Shown here: piece by piece, positions 22,028 through 28,582 of the stretch
Position numbering within the stretch: the first letter of the stretch is position 1
How the letters are laid out: each line of letters opens with the position of its first letter
Assembly (NCBI GenBank): GCA_903870055.1
Contig: CAIQBG010000050.1
Location: 1-64,000, forward strand
Origin: an uncultured Pseudomonadota bacterium
Lineage (GTDB): Bacteria; Pseudomonadota; Gammaproteobacteria; Burkholderiales; Rhodocyclaceae
Direction: 5' to 3'
Length of the DNA stretch: 64,000 nucleotides
Notes under the pieces: generated by a model
What the model was told of the DNA's origin: nothing
Database searches by the model: none
Seen by the model: only the letters and a program-made list of their open reading frames with translations
Position numbers and translations under genes: made by a program

Positions 22028-23092
22028 CTATTGGGCAACCCGTGGTGCCAGCCCCCAGTAGCCACCCTCTGCGTCATAGAGATACCGGTATTTCACAAGG
22101 GGGCGGATGCCGGTGTTGATGAATGGATCACCCCAGCCGGTCACCACATCTTCGAATATCTTGGTCCAATGCCCTTTGTCTAGCGGTGCGGCCGGACCAT
22201 TACCTTCGATCCAACTGATCTGAGGACCCTGTCCACCAATCCACCGCGGCGTGATGTAGACCTCTGTGCCATTGGGGATTTTTCCATGACGCGGTGCGCC
22301 GGTAATACCGGCTAGCGTTGACCGAATTCCGGTATCCATCAGAAAACGGCCATGTACTAGGTAGGGCATGTCGTTATCGACTACGTTGACCGTCAGATCT
22401 GCCTGAGGGTAAGCCCACAGATCCTGCATAAGTCCGCTAACGCGAGGTCTTTCAAGCTTGACGTAGTTAAAACCTTGGCTTGTATCGTTATTGGTTAGCC
22501 CCACACGAATGCCACCCGGTTCAAGAATAAAGCCCGCTCGTAGCTGACCGTTGCGCACCTGCGGCAAGTTAAATATCGCTATCCCATCCAGTTGACCAAA
22601 CCCCAACCCCATGCGTCTGACTCGATCGCCTGCGGGCCCAGCAATACACGCTTTGGCCAGCTCGGCATCCGGGGCACACACGATGTCACTAACCACAAGG
22701 CCGATCAATTCACTGACAGCAACCTGTTCAGCCACGGCACCCGCACCTTGGGCGTCAACAAACTCAATTTTTAGGACGCTCACGGTACCGCGGCTGATCT
22801 GACCGGTTTCGGTAATTTCTGTCAGCCCCTGCGCGACATTGCGGTCAAAATCCGCCACAAGATCCTGGCTGATCATAGTGACACTACTGCCGGTATCAAT
22901 CAGCATTTCAACGATAGGACCACCATTAATACGCGCCCGTACTTTAAGGTGTTGTTCGTAGCTGCTGTCTGCTGTAAACGGAATAAAAAAAGAACCTCGG
23001 TAGGCCGAATAATCCGGCCGTCCCGAGGCAAACGACCATGAACAACTGGTCAGACAGAGTGCTACAAAAAATCGTTTCAGCAACTTAGACAT
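22028..23092 (-). CDS. Exported two-lobed pepsin-like aspartic protease homologue
   Basis: A 354-residue exported protein (signal peptide to about residue 23). It has two aspartic-protease motifs: DTGSS at residues 66-70 and DTGI at 253-256, 187 residues apart, close to the spacing in pepsin. Between them GLGFGQ and a GG-x-RVGLTNND stretch look like the end of the first pepsin lobe. Bacterial pepsin homologues are rare. The second motif has Ile where S/T is usual after DTG, so activity is uncertain. It overlaps the end of piuC by eight bases and is the last gene of the siderophore-receptor operon. A role in processing a periplasmic or surface iron protein is inference. Confidence 0.75.
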
Positions 23093-23768
23093 CAGCCCAC
23101 ATGCGTAATAGGTTGTGATAAACGCCTGTTAAACGAATAGCCTCGTCTGTTTCACCATGTGCTTTGCGCAGTTCGATAATAGACATATCCAGGTCGTAAA
23201 GCAGGCGGCGCTGCTCGTCGGAACGCACCATGCTCTCTGTCCAGAAAAAGCAGGAGATGCGTGCACCCCGGGTTACCGGTTCTACACGATGTACTGATGA
23301 GCTGGGATACAGCACCATATCGCCCGCAGCAAACTTGATCTTCTGGCTGCCGTAGGTGTCTTCAATCACCAGTTCGCCACCTTCGTAGTCTTCCGGCTCG
23401 GTGAGAAACAAGGTACAGGAAACATCCGTACGCACATGCCTACCTGTTGCTGCGTGAGTACGCACCGAGTTATCGATATGATTACCAAACGCATTTTTCG
23501 GGCCGGTATAACGATTAAACAATGGCGGGTAGATGCGCTTGGGTAATGCGCCCGTCAGGAATAGATCATTAGTTGCCAAGGCGTGCAACACGATAGTGCG
23601 CGCCTTTTTGCAGTCGTCTCCGTCTTCCGGCAACTGGGTATTGTTCTTGGCTTTAGCCGATTGGCTACCTGCAGTAATAACGCCATCTGCCCAATCCGCG
23701 TTGTCGATAATCTGACGAATGTCTTTCACCTGTTGTTTGGTGAGCACCTGCGGAATATGTAAGAGCAT
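23085..23768 (-). CDS. piuC: PKHD-type Fe(II)/2-oxoglutarate hydroxylase PiuC
   Basis: A 227-residue Fe2OG dioxygenase. The iron-binding triad is His97-x-Asp99 (HID) and His160, with Arg170 (VTRGAR) for 2-oxoglutarate. PiuC/YbiX-type enzymes are encoded beside catecholate siderophore receptors and are Fur-regulated; their substrate is not established. Here the gene follows the receptor by 20 bases and overlaps the next gene, matching the usual context. Confidence 0.93.
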
Positions 23769-23788: not shown

Positions 23789-26068
23789 TTAGAACTTGTA
23801 GGTCAAACCCAGCTGGAAGGCTTGATAAGTACCGGGCACGGCAAAGCCGCCGTTCTCGTATAACGATACATAGTTGGTCGTATTGAATAGATTGTAGGCA
23901 TTCAAACGCACCGTATAGTTCTTGGCATCGTATTGCAGTAAACCGTCAACAGTCGCCTGGGCCTGAATCCAGTTGGGCGCATTGTAAGCAGCGCCCGTTT
24001 GACCATAGACGTTTTTGCGTCCCTGGCCCGTGACACCGCCACCAATTTTCCAGCCATAGGGCAGCTTGTAAGTGGTCCAGAGGTTATACGTATACGGGGT
24101 GCTATTGGATGGTGCCTTACCCACCATTTGCGTTGCTGCAGGATTCGCCGGAATATCGATGCGCGCATCCATCAAGCCTAGACCACTGAACACATCCCAT
24201 TTTTCGGTAATGCTACCGGTGACTTCAAATTCCAGACCATCCGTATGGCGGCGGGTGGATCTGAGCGTTGCCGTGCTTTCAAGATCGGTGTTTCGTTCGT
24301 AGTTTTTAACCTGATGGTAAGCGGTAGCGCGGAAAGAAAGACCTAAATCATTGATATCACCCTTGTAGCCGATTTCGGTCAGCTCACTGGTTTCTGCCGG
24401 TAACTGAGCTCCTGCCGAGAGTTGGTACAAGTCAGCAGTGGGGCTGAACGAATCGCTCCACGATAGATAGAACGTACCGAAATTAGGCATTGGTTCATAC
24501 AGAAGCCCTGCACGATAACTCGGCGAAGAGAAGTCGAGACCCTGATTCTTCAGACCTGTAGAACTGTTAGGCTGGTTGTAAATAGCGTTTAACCAGTCAT
24601 TACGCAAACCGCCCATGACCTTAACACCCTGCGTAAGCTCGATCATGTCCTGGCCATAAATGGCATAGGAATTCGACTGATAAGAAAATACAGAGCTTGG
24701 GGTTTGAACCAAGTTAGCGTAACCGTTCTTACAATAATCACGCACCAAGTTATTGTTATTCACCGTAATCCAGGCTGTATTTTTTGGGCTGTAACTTGTA
24801 GCGCACCCGCTAGAATCGAAGCTGTACCGATTCACATGCTCTCGATAATACTCAACGCCAGCCAACAAAGTATGGCCTAAGCCCCACGTGCTGGCTGTTT
24901 TATTAAAGTCAGACTGAAACGCCAGGGTTTCTTCATTGGCACCCCGAGGCCCCGCCAAGCTTAGCGTTTGTACCGGATACGGATTTTGTTGAAGTGGATC
25001 AGTGCTTGATTCATTCTGACCCCGCCCCTTATTCGCCCACAGTGAACGCGTGTAATTTGAGTACTTGAGCTTCGTGAGCAAGGAAGTATCTTTGTCGAAG
25101 CTATAGTTCTGGCTCAGTGTACCGAACTGGGTAACGTTGTTCTCAATATCAGCAATGGTCCCGCTGAAAGTGGAGCCAGGTACATTAACCGGGTTATGAG
25201 AAACAGAGTTGAAACCGATACCGTAATCGGGCACCAGATTGGTCTTCAGGTAATAGTAGCTGGCATCAATCTGGTTGTAGGTGCCAATACCCCATGAGTA
25301 GGTTGGTGCCACACCCTGTGTGTGGTTCGTCACCTGATTACGTGAACTGCCAGAATTCTGCACCACGGCATTGATACGGAGTGCCGAGCTTTGCTCACGA
25401 CTCAATACAAAGTTGACGTCTGCCGTGCTTCGGAAGTAATCAAAACTACCGCCGATCACACTAACTTCGCTCTTGTTATCTAGGAATGCTTTCTTATAGA
25501 TCTGGTTAATTACGCCGCCAGCCTGACCACGGCCAAACAACATAGAAGCCGAACCACGCAGCACTTCAATCGCAGCATCGTTAAAGGTATCGCGGTTGTA
25601 CTGGGCGGTATCACGAATACCGTCTACATACATGTCACCAAAGGTGTAGAAACCACGGATATTGATGTTGTCGCCAATACGGCCGCCCTCACCGGAGTTA
25701 AAGGTGACGCTGGGCACGTTGCGCATAGCCTCTTCTAACGTGGTGGCGTTCTGGTCGGTTAGCAGCGTATCCGGGATGATGGTAATCGCCTGCGGCACTT
25801 CTGCCACATCCTGCTCAAACTTGGCAGCCTTGGTCACCTTGACGTTATAGCGGTTGATTTCGATATCCGACTGTGACTGTGCCCGCACCTCTACCTGATT
25901 CAAAGTTTGAGTTTCACCCTCTGCCGTCTGACCAATCGCCGTCAGTGGCGTGACCATCAACGCCGCAATGGTTGCGCCCAAGGTAGAAAAACGCTGCGGC
26001 GTTGCTGTTGCTGCCGCTACCTTTTCTGATCTCTGCTTCTGCTTGTTCCGATGTTTCAGGGTTTTCAT
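23789..26068 (-). CDS. TonB-dependent catecholate siderophore receptor (Fiu/PiuA-like)
   Basis: A 759-residue outer-membrane receptor. ATG 26068 is chosen because GGAG lies six bases upstream; ATGs at 26086 and 26080 overlap that RBS. The N-terminus is unusually basic before the hydrophobic stretch of the signal sequence. The plug begins at [10 protein letters not shown], contains [18 protein letters not shown] and [14 protein letters not shown], and the barrel ends LGLTYKF with terminal Phe. The pairing with piuC points to a Fiu/PiuA-type catecholate siderophore (DHB or related) receptor. It is served by the tonB-exbBD genes upstream in the same operon. Confidence 0.92.
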
Positions 26069-26133
26069 ACGATGCTCCATAACCAATGACCCATCAGTTG
26101 GGTTGGGTCTATTAATTGGCTGGCTGCATCAGG

Positions 26134-26148
26134 GAGGCTAAGTGCCTC
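26134..26148 (-). repeat. Small hairpin before the siderophore receptor gene
   Basis: GAGGC and GCCTC (5 bp) flank a five-base loop in the 117-base gap between the mini-lipoprotein stop (26186) and the receptor start. There is no T-run. It may tune expression of the receptor relative to the upstream genes. Confidence 0.35.
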
Positions 26149-26185
26149 TGTACGGCTGGCTACTACGATTGTTGAGTGGGCTTAC

Positions 26186-26377
26186 CTAACGGGTAATGCC
26201 CGGTACATTTTTTAAAGCTTCTGGCAAAGTCGTGGCATTCTGCTCATCCATCAACTGCCGGTTTACTACGGTAGGCTCCACCGGATTTAATGCGTTCTGA
26301 TAGGGCTGGACCATGACCTCTCCCGTTGCGCTACATCCTGTGATCCAGATGCAAACTAACGGGCGCATTAACTTCAT
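26186..26377 (-). CDS. Mini-lipoprotein ending in a TonB-receptor plug-like segment
   Basis: A 63-residue predicted lipoprotein: signal MKLMRPLVCIWITGC with Cys15 as lipidation site, a short Pro/Asn-rich spacer, then VVNRQLMDEQNATTLPEALKNVPGITR. The end closely matches the plug of TonB-dependent receptors, for example [18 protein letters not shown] in the receptor two hundred bases downstream. Its ATG overlaps the previous stop by one base (TAATG), so it is translated by coupling. It could be a functional mimic that touches TonB or the receptor, or a remnant of a lost receptor; the lipobox and coupling favour a gene. Function unknown. Confidence 0.7.
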   Translation of the reverse strand: MKLMRPLVCIWITGCSATGEVMVQPYQNALNPVEPTVVNRQLMDEQNATTLPEALKNVPGITR

Positions 26378-26583
26378 TAGCGATAGCCGCCTGGACCACC
26401 GCCGATACTGGTCATTCCTGTTTCCGACATGAGCTCTTCGTTCTCGACATCGGCATCAGGATTGACGGTGTAATCATTGGCGTAATGCACTGCGCCCGTA
26501 TGAGAGCACCCGGCTATAAAGCTGGCTGCCATGAGAAGTACGAGACTGCTGCGAAGTGTTTGAATGTCATTCATGGTGGTCAC
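26377..26583 (-). CDS. Mini-lipoprotein in the tonB-exbBD-hemP operon
   Basis: A 68-residue predicted lipoprotein with signal sequence containing LVLLMAASFIAGC and Cys26 as lipidation site. The mature part is about 42 residues, acidic, and ends IGGGPGGYR. The stretch VENEELMSETGMTSI loosely resembles the plug-like VVNRQLMDEQNATTL of the next gene, so the two may be related. It overlaps the hemP stop (ATGA) and the following gene (TAATG), so it sits in a tightly coupled row. I do not recognise a family. Confidence 0.68.
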   Translation of the reverse strand: MTTMNDIQTLRSSLVLLMAASFIAGCSHTGAVHYANDYTVNPDADVENEELMSETGMTSIGGGPGGYR

Positions 26584-26792
26584 TTGGTTAGAATCAATTT
26601 GCCAAGGCGGGTGGCTCGCAATACATAGCTCACCCCTTCGTGATCAATAATCAGGCTGCTGGCCTGGCCTAGTAGCGCACGACTATTAATGCGTTTAGCC
26701 GTTTCCGTCGATGCCGCAGTATTTTGCGGTGCGGGCACAGCGCCCACCTGCAATAGACGGGGTGCGAGACTCGTTCTGGGTTTGTCGGCCAC
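26580..26792 (-). CDS. hemP: Hemin uptake protein HemP
   Basis: A 70-residue HemP/HmuP family protein with GTG start at 26792. The family core INSRALLGQASSLIIDHEG and the C-terminal LRATRLGKLILTK are plain. In several proteobacteria HemP/HmuP acts as an activator of haem or iron uptake genes, so a regulatory role is possible here although no haem receptor is in the window. It starts one base after the exbD stop and overlaps the next lipoprotein gene. Confidence 0.9.
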   Translation of the reverse strand: MADKPRTSLAPRLLQVGAVPAPQNTAASTETAKRINSRALLGQASSLIIDHEGVSYVLRATRLGKLILTK

Positions 26793-26793
26793 G

Positions 26794-27207
26794 TTATTTA
26801 CCTGGGTCTGTTACAAAGCCGACTTTTTCAATACCCGCTTTGTTGGCCATGCCCATGACATTGATCACGCGCTCGTAGGCAACCTGCTTATCCCCATAAA
26901 TATGGACCACAGGTTGTGGGTGATGCGTAGCGAGCTCATCGAGTTCTTTGCGCAGCGCTTCATCTGTCACCGGTGCGTTATTGATTCGGTAAGCCCCCTT
27001 GGCATCTACCGCAAGCTTAACTACATCTGGCTTTTCAAGCTGCGGCGCCGTAGACACTTTGGGCAGATCGATTTCCATCGAGTGCTTCATCACTGGCACG
27101 GTGACGATAAAGATGATGAGCAGCACCAGCATAACGTCAACTAGTGGCGTCATGTTGATTTCGCTCATGACGTTGCCGTCATTGTTGTCCATGCTTCCGA
27201 ATGCCAT
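26794..27207 (-). CDS. exbD: Biopolymer transport protein ExbD
   Basis: A 137-residue inner-membrane protein with one N-terminal helix (MLVLLIIFIVTVPVM) preceded by INMTPLVDVM, where the conserved membrane Asp (in PLVD) lies at the proton path. The rest is a periplasmic domain ending in GFVTDPGK. With ExbB it uses the proton gradient to drive TonB. It starts five bases after the exbB stop. Confidence 0.95.
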   Translation of the reverse strand: MAFGSMDNNDGNVMSEINMTPLVDVMLVLLIIFIVTVPVMKHSMEIDLPKVSTAPQLEKPDVVKLAVDAKGAYRINNAPVTDEALRKELDELATHHPQPVVHIYGDKQVAYERVINVMGMANKAGIEKVGFVTDPGK

Positions 27208-27212
27208 GATGA

Positions 27213-27929
27213 TCAGCCCTGTGCGCGAACGGAACGAACGGCTTGCGGACGTTCAATGCGATTACCCGTTACAAAGAAGGCATGCAGGTCGTAGGCAAAG
27301 CGGTTGAGCTTACCGATGATGAATTGGTTGCCACGCACCAGTGCGTTGTAGCCAAGCACTGCAGGAATGGCGACAGCCAGACCAAAGGCCGTCATGATGA
27401 GCGCTTCACCTACCGGGCCAGCCACTTTATCCAACCCAGCGCTGCCTGCATCGCTGATCGTTAACAAGGCATGATAGATACCCCATACAGTGCCAAAGAG
27501 TCCGACGAAAGGTGCGGTAGATCCGATCGATGCCAATAGCGCCAGCCCCTGGCTCAAACGATCTTTCGCATCATCAATCGCATTGCTCAAGCTGCCCGTC
27601 ATCCAGTCGCTGAGGTCTAGCGCGTCATGCAATTGTTTGTCGCTATGTCGGTGGTGCTGCATGGCGCTCTGTCCTTCAGTGGCGAGTTGCTTGAACGGAT
27701 TAGGTTGACCCGCTTCAATTTCCAGCGCCTTGAGGCCATGCTCGAAGTCAGTGCTATGCCAGAAACTCTGCACCGCAATAACCTGCTTCTTTGCGCGCTG
27801 AATACCCAGCCCTTTAACAATAATGACCGTCCAGGAGATAACGGACATGGCGAGCAGTACGATTGCTGTGAGCGTAATAATGATGCCGCCCGACTGCAGC
27901 ATGTGAAGAAGTCCGAGTTGTTCGTTCAT
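27213..27929 (-). CDS. exbB: Biopolymer transport protein ExbB
   Basis: A 238-residue MotA/TolQ/ExbB-family protein with three membrane segments: near the N-terminus (about 13-33), then two in the C-terminal half, including the LLASIGSTAPFVGLFGTVWG signature. The start at 27929 (MNEQLGLLHML) has AAGG about ten bases upstream; the longer frame to 28031 overlaps the end of tonB and lacks an RBS. It forms the pentameric proton channel with ExbD. Confidence 0.94.
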   Translation of the reverse strand: MNEQLGLLHMLQSGGIIITLTAIVLLAMSVISWTVIIVKGLGIQRAKKQVIAVQSFWHSTDFEHGLKALEIEAGQPNPFKQLATEGQSAMQHHRHSDKQLHDALDLSDWMTGSLSNAIDDAKDRLSQGLALLASIGSTAPFVGLFGTVWGIYHALLTISDAGSAGLDKVAGPVGEALIMTAFGLAVAIPAVLGYNALVRGNQFIIGKLNRFAYDLHAFFVTGNRIERPQAVRSVRAQG

Positions 27930-27970
27930 GATACGAATGCCTTGTGAAATGGAATGACGTTGACGGGAAA

Positions 27971-28582
27971 TTACTGAGGGGCTGCAGGCATTGCCTGATC
28001 CAGAGAGAAGCGGATAGGCAGCTGGTAGCACATGGGAATGGGCTGCCCACCCTTGCGGGCGGGATGGAAACGCCAGCGTTCTACGGTGTCGCTAGCCGCA
28101 CGATCCAACCTGACGAAGCCCGATGATTTGGCGAGATCAACCGAATCAACCGCGCCAGTTGCAGCTACACAGACCTTGAGCAACACAACGCCCTGCTCAC
28201 CCTTACTGCGGCTAACGGCTGGATAAGGTGGCTTCGGGTTGTGCAGATCCGAAGCGCCTGCATCCGGCATATGTACGGGCGCCGCAGCAGGATCACCACT
28301 CACGTTCTTGGTGGCCGCTTGTTCCTGCGCCGTTGAGTTATCTTTGGGAACGACTTTGTTTTTCTTTTCCTGGCGGTCACGCACCGCCTGATTCTTGATG
28401 GTTTGAACCATCGCCGACGATTCACGGTCGACCATTTCAGCCATCATCACAATCGGTTCCGGATGCACGACAAAAAGCACCGCCCAGAAAGCAATGAGCA
28501 AAATACCCACAACATGGATAACCGATACCCATAGGCCGGTTTTACGGTAGGCATTTTCGGGGAGAAAGTGATTTTCAGGCAT
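27971..28582 (-). CDS. tonB: Energy transducer TonB
   Basis: A 203-residue TonB. There is one N-terminal membrane helix (about residues 16-38, with SVIHVVGILLIAFWAVLFVV, keeping the His of the SxxxH motif), a fairly short linker, and the C-terminal domain with PPYPAVSRSKGEQGVVLLKV and VERWRFHPARKGGQP. It transmits ExbBD energy to outer-membrane receptors. It heads the operon that runs to 22028; a Fur-like site lies in the 38-base gap before it. Confidence 0.94.
   Translation of the reverse strand: MPENHFLPENAYRKTGLWVSVIHVVGILLIAFWAVLFVVHPEPIVMMAEMVDRESSAMVQTIKNQAVRDRQEKKNKVVPKDNSTAQEQAATKNVSGDPAAAPVHMPDAGASDLHNPKPPYPAVSRSKGEQGVVLLKVCVAATGAVDSVDLAKSSGFVRLDRAASDTVERWRFHPARKGGQPIPMCYQLPIRFSLDQAMPAAPQ

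Follow-up and report, generated by a model that had tools for sequence, protein, structure and literature searches.

We lean toward the conclusion that lipo2, a 63-residue open reading frame (ORF) in a siderophore-receptor gene cluster, is a young, lineage-specific chimera of a lipo1-like head and a fragment of a receptor plug. The preceding gene, lipo1, is best explained as an actual functional gene whose product would be a small envelope lipoprotein, co-expressed, judging by its position, with the receptor system. The first-pass annotation had ranked lipo1 as the lesser of the two, and our results reverse this order: lipo1 is the conserved one, is under purifying selection, and is not significantly plug-like.

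The window, by which we mean the whole 64,000-nucleotide stretch of DNA that was analyzed, belongs to the 2.05-Mb genome of a freshwater bacterium in 73 contigs (G000 in our comparisons), whose host genus we infer to be Fluviibacter. On the minus strand of this Fluviibacter-like genome, the lipo genes sit in a tonB-exbB-exbD-hemP-lipo1-lipo2-receptor-piuC cluster, with the following features:

23085..23768, minus strand: piuC/YbiX-type Fe2+-dependent dioxygenase (NCBIfam NF003975, E 1.6e-102)
23789..26068, minus strand: PiuA/Fiu-type TonB-dependent receptor (the listed ORF reaches 26086; the common ATG is at 26068)
26060..26163, minus strand: structured leader RNA, a short hairpin plus a long hairpin with the receptor Shine-Dalgarno GGAG; genus-restricted in the data searched
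26186..26377, minus strand: lipo2, a 63-aa ORF with a marginal lipoprotein signal (Cys15), in which residues ~32-62 correspond to the start of a TonB-receptor plug
26377..26583, minus strand: lipo1, a 68-aa ORF for a small lipoprotein kept in the genus (common start ATG 26574)
26580..26792, minus strand: hemP, 70 aa (Pfam hemP, E 2.7e-16)
26794..27207, minus strand: exbD/tolR family protein (profile match)
27213..28031, minus strand: exbB/tolQ family protein (profile match; the listed GTG start overlaps tonB)
27971..28582, minus strand: tonB (TIGR01352, E 3.9e-18)

The true start of the exbB/tolQ gene is probably downstream of the listed GTG. An ORF resembling bacterioferritin-associated ferredoxin (28833-28621; E 9.7e-11, below the model cut-off) precedes tonB, and the nearest solved relatives of the receptor include 5fok (an iron-transport outer-membrane receptor), 5nec, and Fiu 6bpm. 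An aspartyl-protease-like protein is encoded at 22028-23092 on the minus strand (Asp_protease_2, E 5.9e-7), with an 8-base overlap with the end of piuC.

It had been proposed that hemP, lipo1, and lipo2 overlap by ATGA and TAATG. Both lipo ORFs do exist 3' of hemP, and lipo1 and lipo2 do share TAATG, but the hemP/lipo1 junction reads GTGA rather than ATGA. Among the four genomes compared (G000 and its congeners G001, G002, and G004), ATGA is found at this junction in G004 only, and the lipo1 start common to all four, ATG 26574, leaves no overlap with hemP. The lipobox of lipo2, previously called intact, is marginal. By a PROSITE PS51257-like pattern, lipo1 matches in all four genomes (the host lipo1, read from the ATG, has no Lys or Arg among its first 7 residues), while lipo2, with its candidate lipidation site at Cys15, fails by one residue, Arg5, and by this check it has a short, marginal signal peptide. 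Of the 488 mechanically called ORFs of at least 40 aa in the window, 34 carry a loose lipobox pattern, lipo1 and lipo2 being among them, and a lipobox alone therefore says little.

The plug-like end of lipo2, which the first-pass annotation had pointed out, is well supported. It matches Pfam Plug (PF07715) with an E of 3.5e-4 and the NCBIfam Fiu model with an E of 3.8e-5, and the scores observed against the neighboring receptor and against a Diaphorobacter Fiu receptor were each reached by 0 of 3,000 shuffles. The Pfam match has 21.5 bits, which misses the curated cut-off of 23.9, and spans profile positions 8-36 of 107 (29 positions), so it is not a complete plug plus barrel; the Fiu model covers lipo2 residues 36-62 and stays far below its full-length cut-off. 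The segment consists of the last ~30 codons and corresponds to the start of a Fiu/PiuA-type plug up to NVPGIT. Compared with solved receptors of this type, residues 35-61 of lipo2 align with residues 42-68 of the 6bpm chain and residues 32-62 with residues 41-71 of the 5fp1 chain (phmmer E 0.04), and, unlike these receptors, lipo2 has neither the remainder of the plug nor a barrel. We take 6bpm to be Fiu of Escherichia coli and 5fp1 to be an Acinetobacter chain. In a six-frame search the Plug score climbs to 23.9 only if two TAG codons are read through; we rejected a continuation of the plug match beyond the stop codon of lipo2, since that DNA aligns with the intergenic sequence of the congeners. 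An apparent second copy of lipo2 at C9:40410-40580 (E 0.004) lies out of frame within a longer ORF that is unrelated, and was rejected as chance. Because a chance match within the genome reached this E value, single weak matches need to be read with care. In many genomes, long frames repeatedly match the lipo2 plug in one register, at about residues 31-62.

The distribution of lipo2 is narrow. A DNA alignment of the four genomes shows that in the host a ~195-bp insert separates the lipo1 stop from the conserved leader of the receptor; at this locus G001, G002, and G004 have no lipo2 counterpart, and their sequence leads from the lipo1 stop into the leader. In the receptor tree, G002 branches outside a group of G000, G001, and G004 whose internal order is not resolved (support 99/97), and therefore one gain of lipo2 in G000 is simpler than two or more losses. 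Across 395 genomes of the family, lipo2 has matches at E ≤ 0.01 in 82, its own included. Among the matches listed at this threshold, all except lipo2 itself lie in open frames of 402 to 1,470 aa, which, based on frame length and register, we take to be receptors. The N termini at 22 matched loci, nearly all from a 61-genome search, are plug-like. Matches in short frames, at E values of 0.02 to 1, are weak and lie mainly over the front of lipo2. In plasmids, 58 records match lipo2 at E ≤ 1, and among the best 40 of these the annotated matches are receptors, one record also carrying a hypothetical protein and some having no annotation at the match. Beside 13 receptor loci we saw no obvious short lipo2-like ORF, using a loose filter that also returned mechanical ORFs. 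The search for short plug-ended lipoproteins elsewhere, which the first-pass annotation had proposed, thus found no lipo2 orthologue in three congeners and other listed matches in long frames, and lipo2 is represented by one sequence in the data searched. Judged from these sequences, lipo2 appears to have essentially no homologues other than what look like full-length receptors, an outcome that the first-pass annotation had named as speaking against its own proposal; this is not the case for lipo1.

The plug piece is closest to Fiu/PiuA-type receptors of other genera: it is 58% identical to one in G416, among the 395 family genomes, over 31 aa (E 1.6e-5) and 61% identical to one in G035 over 31 aa (E 2.1e-5), and residues 24-60 are 59.5% identical to the Diaphorobacter plasmid Fiu. 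The value for its own neighboring receptor is 48% (E 6.4e-4). Since the receptors of other genera are slightly closer, the plug piece is not a recent copy of the neighbor. However, the receptor of the congener G004 (58% over 31 aa, E 6.0e-5) nearly equals the best foreign matches, so a foreign source is not established. At the DNA level, a search of the host genome for the source of the insert gave short matches only (best other E 0.15).

In order to account for the insert as a plain relic, lipo2 would have to be what remains of the 5' end of another receptor gene, since lost, and would have no stable product. The homologues outside the genome, which lie in long frames or annotated receptors, are consistent with this, and so is the Shine-Dalgarno candidate of lipo2: it has AGGCGG only, in which GGCGG lies within lipo1 codons and is also found in G001 and G002, both of which lack lipo2. 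However, the short insert holds no barrel remnant, the flanking leader is intact, the front of lipo2 is lipoprotein-like, and its codon use is that of coding sequence, with a score of 0.18 that exceeds both the 5th percentile for pieces of real genes (0.102) and the 95th percentile for off-frame readings (-0.052). We consider a relic unlikely. The first-pass annotation had likewise argued against simple decay of a former receptor gene, and we agree that this is too simple, because the insert consists of a head and a plug fragment only, the leader is intact, and the front resembles lipo1. The frame is intact and coding-like although lipo2 has diverged widely from lipo1 and from every receptor found, and selection could therefore have kept it.

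The resemblance of the front of lipo2 to lipo1 is itself limited. Over the mature part, the score is reached by 0 to 6 of 2,000 shuffles, but once the lipobox Cys-Ser is left out the similarity is weak, with 10 to 40 of 2,000 shuffles reaching the score, and because of this the head may not be of lipo1-like origin after all. An hhalign comparison of lipo2 with lipo1 gives a P value of 7.7e-4 and a probability of 25%. The invariant positions in an alignment of lipo2 with the four lipo1 proteins are the lipobox Cys, T-G, V, N, N-P, L, E, T, and the last residue, R. These positions, the shuffle and hhalign results, and the length of the insert, which is about that of one lipo1 gene, would fit lipo1 and lipo2 being tandem paralogues of a receptor-companion family that acts on the PiuA-type receptor, with the plug-like end kept or gained in lipo2 and lost in lipo1. 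Purifying selection on lipo1 and the slightly above-average scores that it gives with the four receptors from its genus (z 1.66 to 1.85; 28 to 42 of 500 shuffles reach the score) point in the same direction. Nevertheless, lipo1 itself is not significantly plug-like, and the PG part of the common ending is absent from the G004 lipo1. Moreover, lipo2 is 33 to 40% identical to lipo1, compared with 47 to 85% among the lipo1 orthologues, which would make the duplication old or fast evolving, although three congeners lack lipo2. On balance, we find paralogy of this kind doubtful.

A third possibility is the one favored by the first-pass annotation, that lipo2 is a lipid-anchored mimic of the plug that binds the receptor, TonB, or ExbD and tunes uptake, either by competing for TonB/ExbD or by filling the barrel. 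The similarity to a true plug over ~30 residues, the place of the gene within a tonB-exbB-exbD-receptor cluster, and the TAATG overlap with lipo1 are compatible with such a decoy. We obtained no positive evidence for it. The congeners have no orthologue, and none of the other matches listed at E ≤ 0.01 sits in a frame shorter than 402 aa. Homology covers the start of the plug, in which no TonB box was identified, and we know of no precedent for TonB binding through it. The signal peptide is marginal, and the AlphaFold2 model of lipo2 (mean pLDDT 54, pTM 0.13, from a 5-row alignment) is of low confidence with no fold, so that it gives no support to a mimic and does not exclude one. We regard a plug mimic as quite improbable.

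Returning to the chimeric ORF that we prefer, duplication or recombination would have fused the head of a lipo1-like lipoprotein with part of a receptor plug, and this plug fragment would have come from a copy diverged from the neighbor, perhaps a lost second receptor or an acquired one. Coupling to lipo1 through TAATG probably gives low-level translation of lipo2, the product of which would be a short peptide that may be lipidated. Most likely, lipo2 has no selected role yet.

The evidence that lipo1 is a functional gene comes from the genus. Matches with an E of 3.4e-21 or better are found in 4 of 5 same-genus genomes (the host included), in the same place in the congeners, and hemP is found in the same 4 of 5; in G003 (82% complete), neither hemP nor lipo1 was found. 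In G001, positions 1-270 of contig C173 (locus L066) open with sequence that is discontinuous with hemP upstream, and a near-full hemP match lies on contig C186, possibly reflecting a misjoined contig or a second hemP copy in the genome bin. The mature part of lipo1 contains CSHTGAVHYAND..NPDADVE.. motifs. A dN/dS check on orthologues, as the first-pass annotation had suggested, came out in favor of lipo1: pairwise dN of the mature part is 0.05 to 0.40 and dS is 0.6 to 2.9 (near or at saturation), and since dN is well below dS, we conclude that lipo1 is under purifying selection.

The lipo1 protein stays below every Pfam and NCBIfam cut-off; its weak matches are to Ten_N (E 0.097) and to the YgdI/YgdR lipoprotein (E 0.069, 13.1 bits, compared with a cut-off of 42). 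The "weak similar" plug pattern that had been noted in lipo1 did not hold up. The best z over 22 receptor N termini is 2.16, a value reached by 19 of 500 shuffles, and z is below 0.7 for 14 of the 22, so we rejected the host lipo1 as a second plug mimic. In the 395 family genomes, nothing outside the genus matches lipo1 better than E 0.002, and 21 others match at E ≤ 0.1; the best of these outside matches, in a 292-aa frame, was taken as chance. There are no lipo1 relatives in the viral contigs or plasmids searched, and a contig search returned two congeners only. An order-wide search of 399 genomes with a lipo1-plus-lipo2 profile had matches at E ≤ 1 in at least 231 genomes; the matches listed are short fragments, and among them the best from outside the host is at E 0.001. 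In the open-licence literature, we found nothing combining Fluviibacter with a lipoprotein, and, judged by title or start of abstract, nothing pertinent on small lipoproteins with siderophore receptors or plug mimics, on hemP with a lipoprotein and exbD, or on cirA with RyhB. The position of lipo1 suggests that it may act as a companion of the receptor. An analogy may be drawn with LptM (YifL), a small lipoprotein that is reported to assemble with LptD and for which mimicry of lipopolysaccharide binding has been proposed (PMC10567701); the likeness would lie in a small lipoprotein proposed to aid an outer-membrane barrel by mimicry, which is one way in which lipo1 and lipo2 could act.

A leader element that the first-pass annotation did not mention lies between the last lipo stop and the receptor start in all four genomes. 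It consists of a short hairpin followed by a long hairpin, the 3' strand of which carries the receptor Shine-Dalgarno sequence (GGAGCAT). Minimum-energy folds pair the Shine-Dalgarno GG in 4 of 4 genomes, with a pairing probability of 0.63 to 1.0, and the leader is thus predicted to sequester the receptor Shine-Dalgarno. The fold z-scores in the four genomes are -3.0, -2.6, -0.8, and -3.8; at -0.8, the G002 leader is hardly more stable than shuffles. Two-sided changes occur in 4 of 19 consensus pairs, which 24 of 500 shuffles reach, while the covariation score is reached by 1 of 500 and the number of pair types by 147 of 500. Of 76 leader cells, 94.7% pair, compared with 38 to 45% with slid partners, a figure that is favored by the derivation of the structure from the same four sequences. 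Two-sided changes are absent from the helix containing the Shine-Dalgarno. Among fully occupied columns, 37 of 49 are invariant in the leader core and 12 of 17 in the ribosome-binding region, compared with 79 of 189 in lipo1, 53 of 100 at the hemP end, 7 of 20 from the lipo2 stop to the element, and 5 of 28 in the apical region of the leader, where the stem still pairs with differing sequences.

The exact leader pattern was found in 4 of 395 family genomes, all of the same genus. The RNA model found 4 of 341 genomes at E < 1e-20, which are its own source sequences, and a further 12 outside the genus were marginal (E 0.002 to 0.1); at the one locus inspected among them, in G246, no TonB receptor was recognized. 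A comparison of 25950-26700 with Rfam gave a chance-level match only (E 3.9, 14.4 bits, compared with a gathering threshold of 34). A structure between hemP and hemR of Yersinia enterocolitica has been suggested to hide a ribosome-binding site, with reference to the FourU thermometer of ShuA, but a Western blot described there, in which HemR1 "is not subject" to regulation, apparently thermoregulation, spoke against control of HemR1 by this structure (PMC6158557). The Fluviibacter leader differs from that RNA in that it follows the lipo genes, is G+C-rich, and has covariation.

The most far-reaching reading would combine all three elements: lipo1 would be a dedicated companion of the PiuA-type receptor, a second copy in this lineage would have captured a segment of a receptor plug and become a lipid-anchored decoy for the barrel or the Ton machinery, and the leader RNA would set receptor translation. 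We think it very improbable that all of this is correct.

If lipo2 were functional, it would illustrate the birth of a small regulator through fusion of a lipoprotein head with part of the adjoining receptor. As it is, lipo2 is a clear chimeric ORF of a single genome and is useful as a caution. The inferred host genus, Fluviibacter, has cultured strains (PMC7936642). Better leads are offered by lipo1, an orphan lipoprotein gene that is conserved and lies in a siderophore-receptor cluster, and by the leader RNA, which apparently hides the ribosome-binding site of the receptor.
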